Origin: Caenorhabditis elegans | Taxonomy: Eukaryota; Nematoda; Chromadorea; Rhabditida; Rhabditidae | Direction: 5' to 3' | DNA length: 64,000 nt | Assembly: GCF_000002985.6 (NCBI RefSeq) | Contig: NC_003279.8 | Coordinates: 6,200,001-6,264,000 of the forward strand | Part shown: piece after piece, positions 12,137 to 15,532 of the stretch | Layout of the letters: every line of letters starts with the position of its first letter | Numbering within the stretch: position 1 is the first letter of the stretch | The notes under the pieces: generated by a model | The model's input: the letters and a program-made list of their open reading frames with translations, nothing else | Told to the model about the DNA's origin: nothing | Database searches by the model: none | Position numbers and translations under genes: made by a program

Positions 12137-14575
12137 TTACTTGTCGAGTCTACAGATTGGATTATTGTAGACCACATTCAAATCGATTTTGCTTCCGAAA
12201 AGATCACGAATGTTGTTAATTCCATACTTAATCATTGTCGGGCGCTCCAGGGACAAACCATAACCAGCGACATTCACATCAGCTGGCAAACCCATCGGCA
12301 GAAGCATTTCAGGGCGGAACATTCCAGAGTTTCCAATCTAAATCTTATTGATTCTCGTGTGATTTTGATTTTAGTACGTACCTCCACCCATTTAGTAAGT
12401 CCTTGATGGTACGCGAAAATTTCCATACTCGGCTCGGTATATGGATTGTATGTTGGCTTGAAACGAAGATTGGTGATTCCCAATTTCTTGAAGAACTCGG
12501 TGAAGATTCCGATAAGATGAGCCAAACTGAGATTTTTCTCAGCAATTACTCCTTCTACTTGATGGAACTCGGCCAAATGTGTAGCGTCGAGAGTCTCATT
12601 ACGAAAAACACGGTCAATCGAGAATAGTTTAGATGGACGGAAACCCTGAAAAAATAAGGTTTTATAATCGCATTTTTTTTACATAAAAAGTATAAAATTG
12701 TATTGCACATCGACTGGAGACATTCAGAACAAACTCTGAAATTTCCGTCGTTATGCAAGAATCTATTTTCCCGAGTCGGAAACCGTCATAACTATTAAAG
12801 TTGATCCGGGGCAAAGACCGGGCACACAGTGGGATTGAACCAGAGACCTGCTGACCGTTAGTCGCCAGTGTTCCCAACTGCGCCATGAGTGCAGTTTCCC
12901 CCCACAACCTCTCATCATGTAGACATTGGCAGACAGTGAGAGTAGTACACAAGACACACACTATCCCAATAACCCAAAATTTTTTGTCGACTAACTTCCT
13001 GAGCTAGCTGGTACAACTGCCGAGCAGATACGGCGGTTGTATGGGTTCTAAGAACATTCTTCTGAGCCTCTTCAATCTTCCAGTCGTAGTTATATCCAGC
13101 GGAACCATATCCCCCTTTCGAATGAACAGTTTTTACTCTCTCCAAATAATCTTCAGGGAACTTCGTGCTAATCGCGGGATCTTGAAAAATTGAAAAATGA
13201 ACAAGATGCAAAAACGATATGAAGAATCTAACCAGAAACGAAGAAAGTATCATGAGCATCTCTTGCAGGATGCTGTTGAGGTTGGAAAAGGGCATCAAAG
13301 TTCCAGAAAGACGACTCCACGTATCGATTTGTCGCCATTTCAGAAAATCCCATTGAGAAGAAGATTTGTCGGAATTCAGACCGCACTTTCATTAATGGAT
13401 GCAGATGCCCAGATGACGGAACAACTCCGAGTGAATCGAAATTATACTTTTTGAATTGCATGTCTTTCCATGAACCACTAAATTATGAGTTTTCCTATAG
13501 AAAAGTAATTGTAAGTAACTTACGAAGCAATCATTTCCGGAGTCAAATCAGCTTCCTGCTTTGCAAGACTAGTGGTGAAAGATGTTCCCTTGGAAACCAC
13601 CAATGCTTTGATGTTTCTAAAATTTGATTTCTGTTAAATATTAGAAACTATTGACAAAATGCATACACTTCACTGATAAGCTTTCTCTTCTTCAGCTCCT
13701 TCTTCTCATTTTCACTAACATCGGAACTTCCAATTCTTAACGACTCGAGCTGTTTTCTGGTGGAATCAGTTACTTCAGTGGCTTGTCGGACGACACGTCC
13801 CTTATCCACAGAAACCCATTTGAACTGCATAGCTTTCGCCATACCAATTTTTCCAAATGGTTTCTTCTGAAAAAATTGAATTAGAAACTTCGCTTGATGA
13901 TGTTTTTTTAACCTGAATGTCAGCTTGCGCGGCTCCATCAGTTCCAACAAACTCAAAAACGAGGTACTCCGGCGAACCTTCGTTAGCAAACTGTACTCCC
14001 TCGTTAGTTAATTCCAGCCGTTTCTCGGTCACATCTTTGGTGGTAAGAACCCCTTCGTTTGCAAGCAAACTTTTGATTGCTCCAATCACTTTCTGATGAT
14101 CGAGATTCCATTGCTGGGCGAGTTGAATTGAGTTGAATTCATTCGATTCTTGAAGGAAATCGAGGATTTGTTGGGGTAGGTTCTCCGTTGATCGGACATC
14201 AGTTTCAGCAGTCATTCTAAAAAAAATAATTATGTAAACTTGAGTAAAATGTGAAGTTAAAACTAAGAAACAGTAAGAAATCAATGAAAGAAGCTAGATA
14301 TGGATATCTTACTCAAAAGATGATAAATGCTGAAACCAGCGTTCCAAATGCTCTCGCCCTTTCAATTCTTTTTCTGTTATCGAAGCTCTCGCAGAGAAAT
14401 CGGCGGCCGATGGTTGCACGAACCTTCAATTTTTACTTTTTAGAACAAACCTCTAAATACTAGTTTTACAAGCACATCACACGTTTAATACAATACTCAT
14501 GCAATTTACAAAAATTCACCCTTCAATGTATGGTTGATCTTGTAGAATTTGGTTGAGACGATCCGGATCGGTCAT
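12137..14575 (-). CDS. fars-1: Cytosolic phenylalanyl-tRNA synthetase alpha subunit, with a GST-C/eEF1B-like N-terminal extension isoform
   Basis: Core exons 14215-13913, 13866-13667, 13616-13524, 13477-13233, 13180-12996, 12645-12382, 12337-12137 encode 496 residues (human FARSA 508). The N-terminal winged-helix DNA-binding-like region is followed by the class II catalytic core: motif 2 [25 protein letters not shown] and motif 3 [18 protein letters not shown]. It charges tRNA-Phe with phenylalanine as an alpha2beta2 enzyme. Two upstream exons, 14575-14520 and 14423-14313, splice in frame into base 14216 and give a 552-residue form. The added 56 residues ([14 protein letters not shown] ... 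[13 protein letters not shown]) resemble the GST-C-like N-terminus of eEF1B beta. The ATG at 14215 also directly follows a TTTTTTTAG acceptor, so a short form could start by trans-splicing. The acceptor of the second extension exon (TTGAAG) is weak. Confidence 0.9.
12822..12892 (-). other. tRNA-like element inside a fars-1 intron (probable tRNA pseudogene or tRNA-derived SINE)
   Basis: Minus-strand bases 12892-12822 (71 nt) have an A-box-like TGGCGCAGTTGG and a B-box GGTTCAATCC at proper spacing. A 7-bp acceptor stem has one mismatch (GCACTCA with TGTGTGC), and the anticodon stem is CTGGC/GTCAG with an irregular loop. The D stem and T stem are poor, so a working tRNA is doubtful. It lies in the same orientation as the host gene, in the intron 12995-12646. 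Confidence 0.5.
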
Positions 14576-14664
14576 CCGAAAAAAAACTGAATTTGAAATA
14601 TTGAAATTTTGCGTGACATGAGATCAGGCATTACGAATAAGAAAATGGGTATATTTCATTTAAA

Positions 14665-15532
14665 ATGTGGAGTTTTGTATTGTGTCTGTTAATTTGTTTC
14701 GAATATTCGTATCAGTGGCGTGAATATGTGAATAATCGAGTTAGAAATTACTGGAAAACTATGATTTTCAGAAAGCTTTCGAGTGTTATCACATTTCGGA
14801 GCCAGTGGAAAATATTCTCAATGGACAATTCAATCTAGAACGACAAAAATGCTATGGCACTGAAGGTTCTTCGCTATTCAATGTGAGAGTTTTAACGATT
14901 CATAATCAAATTAACTTGTAACAGGCTTGCAAGACAGATATAATTGATGGAATTGTCTACAGTGGATGTATGAACACTACACACTGGCGAACAAATTTTC
15001 TTTGCTCTCCTACGTCCAACAAACGAGAATTTATTAACAATTTGGTAACGCCTCAGGCATTTAATTTCATATTCCTGTGATTTCAGGACACAAATGGAAT
15101 TTTTATATTCGATGAAATAAAATCGTGTTGTTGTCGAGACACTCTATGCAATAATGCGAACTACTTGAAAGTCATGGTAAAAACTAAAAAAGGGAGGACT
15201 CTTTAGGTTTCGACTAAATTTTCAGAAAAACAAGTACTCTTCGACAAAATCAATTTTTTTGATCAATTAGTTACTGATGGTCTGATTGTGTTCAGCTTTT
15301 TTGCAGTTGTATTGTTTGTCCTTATGATAGAGATAATTTGCAGAGAGGTATGAATTTAAATGGAGCTTTTTACAATAAAACAAAAGTTTTTCAGCCAATT
15401 ATTGGAAGAATAGACACGCGGCAGTATATAATGGAAGCAAAGTAACTTAAAAATCATTTTATATTTGAAAAAGAATATGGAAATTTCAGGAAAACTATAA
15501 GAGACGTTCCTGAAAATGAAGAAATGAAATAA
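14665..15532 (+). CDS. Cysteine-rich type I membrane protein, Ly6/ET-module-like
   Basis: Proposed exons 14665-14727, 14772-14882, 14925-15044, 15087-15176, 15207-15347, 15395-15441, 15490-15532 give 204 residues. A signal peptide (MWSFVLCLLICFEYSYQ) is followed by a Cys-rich ectodomain ending in the CCCRDTLCNN motif, the CC..D.CN finish of three-finger and nematode ET-module proteins. Then come one membrane segment (LIVFSFFAVVLFVLMIEIIC) and a short cytoplasmic tail ending EEMK. Function unknown; a surface receptor or adhesion role is only inference. Keeping the frame between the ectodomain and membrane exons requires an intron of just 30 nt (15177-15206). Using the next TTTTCAG (50-nt intron) would end the protein before the membrane segment. 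Poly(A) signal 15711-15716. Confidence 0.72.

Follow-up and report, generated by a model that had tools for sequence, protein, structure and literature searches.

Does the gene for the alpha subunit of phenylalanyl-tRNA synthetase (PheRS) in Caenorhabditis elegans encode, ahead of its usual start, a domain of the kind found at the N-terminus of elongation factor 1B (eEF1B), and if so, what would that domain bind? The question is raised by a stretch of 64,000 nucleotides (C1:6200001-6264000, hereafter the window, meaning the whole stretch that was analysed). An earlier note, made from the letters of this DNA alone, had proposed that two upstream exons lengthen the PheRS alpha product by a piece resembling eEF1B. 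We followed up this proposal with analyses of the gene and its splice signals, with sequence comparisons, and with searches of the window, of family libraries and of the genome (100,286,401 bases in 7 contigs).

The PheRS alpha gene and its two upstream exons

The minus strand of the window carries a gene for the cytosolic PheRS alpha subunit (FARSA), and both FARSA markers, the tRNA-synt_2d exons and a PheRS_DBD1 domain (62.2 bits), are present in its product. The core of the gene (12137..14215, minus strand) runs through seven exons from an ATG at 14215 to a TAA stop at 12139-12137 and encodes 496 aa. Because of its position and family match, we take it to be T08B2.9, the C. elegans cytosolic PheRS alpha gene, which is also named fars-1 and let-396 (PMC9593246). 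This gene is listed among the essential genes under sDp2, in the left part of chromosome I, and its allele h217 is described there as a nonsense change of Q to stop (PMC4039747). In a scan of viral contigs, residues 1-101 of the core found no relative.

Two elements lie inside the gene and one beside it. The 350-nt intron 7 (12995-12646) harbors the H/ACA snoRNA ceN43 at 12696-12824 on the minus strand (Rfam RF01633, 163.1 bits against a gathering threshold of 50). Directly upstream of the snoRNA, a tRNA-like stretch (12820-12893, minus strand) contains TGGCGCAGTTGG and GGTTCAATCCC, which we take to resemble the A and B boxes of pol III promoters. ARAGORN made no tRNA call for this stretch, and the genome search found it in one copy; it could be a promoter for pol III, or it could form a tRNA-snoRNA unit. 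Beyond the 5' end of fars-1, an open frame on the plus strand (14665-14838) starts with MWSFVLCLLICFEYSYQ, looks like a signal peptide by eye, and is divergent to fars-1 exon 1, from which about 90 bases separate it.

The proposed coordinates of the two additional exons proved exact. Exon 1 (14520..14575, minus strand, 56 nt) runs from an ATG to ACATTGAAGG, is followed by the donor GTGAATTTTT, and would supply the first helix and the YIEG turn of an eEF1B-like domain. Exon 2 (14313..14423, minus strand, 111 nt) begins behind the acceptor ...AAAAATTGAAG, ends at the donor GTAAGATATC, and would supply the remainder of the domain, including an S-x-x-D box and RW..H..SFE. The two introns on this strand, intron 1 (14424..14519) and intron 2 (14217..14312), are each 96 nt long and in phase 2, with GTGAAT and GTAAGA as their respective donor sites, a weak acceptor in intron 1 (AAATTGAAG) and the acceptor ...TTTTTTTTAG in intron 2. 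Joined to base 14216, the exons stay in frame and, as the earlier note had it, add 56 residues before the usual FARSA start methionine, such that the product grows from 496 aa (from the ATG at 14215) to 552 aa. As sequence, the in-frame splicing of both exons onto fars-1 is confirmed; their use in transcripts we infer.

The 5' region also bears on how a short product could be made. The core exon, from 14216, opens with AATG, placing the second ATG one base behind the acceptor TTTTTTTTAG. This acceptor could also serve a short form beginning at that ATG, presumably by trans-splicing. Ahead of the first ATG, by 11 nt, stands a putative trans-splice acceptor, AAATTCAG, the last G of which is base 14587. 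This site and the acceptor-adjacent second ATG together make the pattern expected of two alternative 5' ends, and two fars-1 isoforms, long and short, are plausible. A 552-aa isoform is presumably annotated in WormBase. The published literature includes a fars-1 mutant given as Thr412Gly (PMC7426821); since residue 412 is Thr when the 496-aa form is counted and Phe when the 552-aa form is, that name evidently follows the short form.

Such numbering would suit a history in which a domain was gained and its exons survive as genuine relics, now rarely spliced in, leaving the long form with little role. The acceptor of exon 2 fits this history as well, being by eye the weakest of the gene's eight and having no run of three T, which all seven of the others possess, and none of the titles and abstracts that searches of the open PheRS literature returned describes a long form. 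However, an intact frame, GT-AG signals and preserved key residues of the domain would be unexpected in a long-unused relic, as would the codon choice of the extension, which leans to that of the core: with the FARSA core's own codons as the reference, the extension beat 4940 of 5000 uniform synonymous recodings, and only the remaining 60 scored as high. We regard a relic with little role as improbable, though not negligibly so.

Similarity of the extension to the N-terminal domain of eEF1B alpha

The earlier note had likened the added residues to the GST-C-like N-terminus of eEF1B, and the likeness stands above background in single-sequence searches, shuffles, profile comparison and scans of the window alike. 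Searched with phmmer against 177,635 distinct PDB sequences, the 56 residues retrieved human EEF1B2 (elongation factor 1-beta, 5dqs_D) as the top match (E=4.2e-4), and three GST1-4 sequences, all distinct, came next (E=0.041); these four were the only matches up to E=10, and no EPRS, MetRS or AIMP chain was among them. The local alignment score of the extension against the human EEF1B2 stretch was 89, a value reached by none of 5000 shuffles, which scored 19.2 +/- 3.7 (s.d.). An hhalign comparison with a two-sequence eEF1B profile gave a probability of 96.1%. The worm's own eEF1B.1 scored 76 against the same human stretch (0 of 5000 shuffles), and the extension against worm eEF1B.1 scored a weak 38, which 8 of 5000 shuffles reached. 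By these scores the extension lies closer to the human protein than to worm eEF1B.1, which is itself divergent. Identities, taken from one alignment, were 39% to the human stretch and 24% to worm eEF1B.1.

YIEG, PS.AD, RW and SxE are common to the fars-1 extension and the N-terminus of human EEF1B2 (5DQS chain D). S-x-x-D is the N-cap box motif of GST C-domains, and it reads PSAAD in fars-1, PSQAD in human eEF1B and LSGED in worm eEF1B.1. The fars-1 domain differs from eEF1B alpha in being shorter (56 aa), in having a loop that is longer by one residue ahead of PSAAD, in having no GEF domain behind it, and in being fused to PheRS alpha.

Read in six frames and cut from stop to stop, the window yields 2746 segments that are 15 aa long or longer. 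Among these, a profile of human and worm eEF1B built without fars-1 ranked the exon-2 segment first and the exon-1 segment second, with E-values of 0.54 and 1.1, neither of them significant singly. With the human eEF1B sequence alone, exon 2 again ranked first (E 0.031) and exon 1 fourth (E 13) of the 2746. We also scanned both strands of the window for open two-exon joins. Each had to begin with an ATG exon, 30 to about 155 nt in length, that ended at a GT donor; an AG acceptor had to follow at a distance of 40 to about 160 nt, with at least 75 nt open past it, and no second donor was required. Of the 6402 such joins, the one proposed scored highest against the human EEF1B2 stretch (89), its runner-up was the same join with another acceptor (60), and the top unrelated join reached 37.

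Family libraries returned less. In Pfam, the 56 residues matched only Arc1p_N_like, at 15.5 bits and under the cut-off of 27, and with a 113-residue piece (the extension plus 57 core residues) that family was no longer listed. The N-terminus of worm eEF1B.1 also fails this cut-off (14.3) and the human one passes it (33); a worm eEF1B domain thus misses the cut-off too. In NCBIfam neither the human nor the worm eEF1B piece had a match, and the extension had only an irrelevant one to a galactokinase at E 0.068. As the human EEF1B2 N-terminus has no model of its own in Pfam or NCBIfam, the failure of the libraries says little, and both scans are weakly informative for so short a piece. The whole-genome searches, which run exon by exon, are similarly weak for such short pieces: the 56 residues found fars-1 itself and no further copy, 111 residues of human eEF1B found only exon 2 of eEF1B.1 (E 0.287) and missed fars-1, and 49 residues of human eEF1B found nothing, missing eEF1B.1 as well.

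The missed Pfam cut-off and the single-exon E-values in the six-frame scan would be in keeping with a resemblance that arose by chance, the two exons being 5' UTR or noise. Against this stand the shuffles, the phmmer E-value and the gap between the proposed join and the top unrelated one, and, as set out below, an intron whose place and phase fars-1 has in common with worm eEF1B.1. On these grounds a chance or 5' UTR origin was rejected; we consider it extremely improbable. As judged from sequence, homology between the 56 residues and the GST-C-like domain at the N-terminus of eEF1B alpha is solid.

An intron position shared with worm eEF1B.1

The worm eEF1B.1 locus (L013, on C3) reads MVADVKSPAGLAAFNTTLAEQAFATG|FVLSGEDAQLF..., with a phase-2 intron right behind the conserved G. 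An intron after this glycine and in this phase is common to fars-1 (YIEG|F) and eEF1B.1 (FATG|F), and intron 1 of fars-1 thereby matches the first intron of the eEF1B.1 coding sequence in both place and phase. Because the residue and the phase are the same in the two genes, the shared intron fits descent of the fars-1 domain, together with its intron, from an eEF1B gene. Intron 2 of fars-1, which follows SSF, is not matched in eEF1B.1; there the second coding exon continues past that point.

The C-terminal GEF domain of eEF1B (PF00736) matched at the C3 locus and at a second, eEF1B-delta-like locus on C4 (L012, 6,001 bases), and nowhere in the window. We scanned the open segments of at least 15 aa on both strands of L012 for motifs of the YIEG, FATG and RW(Y/F/H) types and found none; the same scan of L013 as a control gave both known pieces of eEF1B.1. 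The gene at L012 has a feature of its own. Its leucine-zipper-like frame (L012:3155-4267) continues, ahead of the GEF exon that lies in the frame from L012:4378, into an rRNA methyltransferase domain of BMT5-like type (PF10354, 101.9 bits). The worm genome may encode a product combining an eEF1B-type zipper with a methyltransferase.

A candidate docking domain for eEF1B gamma

Human eEF1B alpha has been crystallised with the GST-like N-terminal domain of EEF1G, in the unpublished structure 5DQS (described in PMC10452860). The worm genome has one match to eEF1B gamma (PF00647, E 3e-45), and an exon upstream of this match fits GST_C at 36.5 bits, above the cut-off of 20.7. We hold it probable, with some reserve, that fars-1 encodes a 552-aa form with an eEF1B-alpha-type docking domain, which would most likely bind worm eEF1B gamma.

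If the long form is expressed and folds like its relatives, its first two exons would make an eEF1B-alpha-type GST-C-like docking domain on PheRS alpha, and the long subunit would bind eEF1B gamma by the same face that eEF1B alpha uses. PheRS is described as an alpha2beta2 enzyme (PMC12680543), and therefore one enzyme could carry two docking domains. A synthetase with up to two such domains would be fastened to the complex that recharges eEF1A, Phe-tRNA would be made beside its carrier eEF1A, and how much of the PheRS is tethered would be determined by which 5' exon or trans-splice site is chosen.

A human parallel points in the same direction. A splice variant of human CARS1 with an insert at its N-terminal GST domain is described as inhibiting EEF1G (PMC9166799), and by analogy a similar arrangement on PheRS alpha leads to the prediction that long FARS-1 binds eEF1B gamma. 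As the CARS1 variant is said to inhibit its partner, the outcome of binding could be restraint of eEF1B and not channelling of Phe-tRNA.

Alternatively, the domain could anchor PheRS to the multisynthetase complex of the worm, where its partner might be, for instance, a p38-like scaffold or the GST-like domain of GluRS. GST-like domains are described as driving such assembly in human MetRS and GluProRS and in worm GluRS (PMC4394549), and a profile that includes the extension also picks up chains of AIMP3 (EEF1E1), at about 1e-4, with weak matches to the GST domains of p43 and EPRS. The single extension sequence, however, matches eEF1B first and, up to E=10, none of the EPRS, MetRS or AIMP chains. 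The purified worm complex, in the composition quoted by the same review, contains the Arg, Gln, Glu, Ile, Leu, Lys, Met and Val synthetases and no Phe enzyme (PMC4394549), and because PheRS is missing from that list we find eEF1B, through its gamma subunit, better supported as the tether than the multisynthetase complex. Docking in the latter we consider quite improbable.

Returning to eEF1B gamma as the partner, a bolder version of this reading concerns ValRS. Vertebrate ValRS sits on the eEF1 complex, and worm ValRS is described as having no GST-like domain and as belonging to the multisynthetase complex (PMC4394549). It is conceivable, but on balance doubtful, that in the worm PheRS takes the place at the elongation factor that belongs to ValRS in vertebrates: it would have acquired an eEF1B-type domain together with its intron, would join the complex through eEF1B gamma, would give the first known case of a class II synthetase bearing its own domain of this kind, and would be switched by the choice of 5' exon.

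Relation to known systems

N-terminal GST-type docking domains are familiar on other synthetases. ValRS, MetRS and GluRS/EPRS carry them, as long fars-1 would, yet the GST-like domains of these enzymes are absent from the four PDB matches of the extension. Human FARSA shares the core of the fars-1 product; to our knowledge it has no extension like the one that precedes the usual FARSA start in the worm. CysRS, GluRS-E, MetRS and ValRS are all class I synthetases, and an EF1-associating domain of a human CysRS variant was reportedly described by Kim in 2000. Human VARS1 has a predicted cGST domain of residues 1-213 (PMC10452860), against 56 residues in fars-1. Human CARS1-N6 is similar to fars-1 in that a synthetase gains an N-terminal piece by exon choice, a piece that in CARS1-N6 acts on eEF1B gamma; it differs in being a different synthetase, and we liken the two by description, the CARS1 variant being reported as an inhibitor of EEF1G (PMC9166799).

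The AARS Online table of 2024, as given in its description, places GST domains on CysRS, GluRS-E, MetRS and ValRS only (PMC11580382), which agrees with the synthetases that the earlier note had named as carriers. A plant survey similarly lists GST domains on human CysRS, MetRS and ValRS and on plant GluRS, and gives PheRS alpha a DNA-binding domain (PMC7564348). The relevant portions of accounts of Plasmodium (PMC2813244) and of three fungi (PMC4301749) make no mention of a GST domain on PheRS. In the titles and abstracts that searches of the open literature returned, a scope outside which most subscription papers fall, we found no GST- or eEF1B-type domain on PheRS alpha. The kind of domain is thus already known, and its presence on PheRS alpha seems, within the literature searched, not to have been published before.

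Docking domains on synthetases are among the principal clues to the route by which charged tRNAs arrive at the ribosome. If the proposed role is true, the elongation factor complex can accept one more synthetase, and does so in an animal in which ValRS is without a GST-like domain. The fars-1 domain would then allow a compact test in C. elegans of what direct handover of Phe-tRNA to eEF1A is worth, with the catalytic core of the synthetase untouched.
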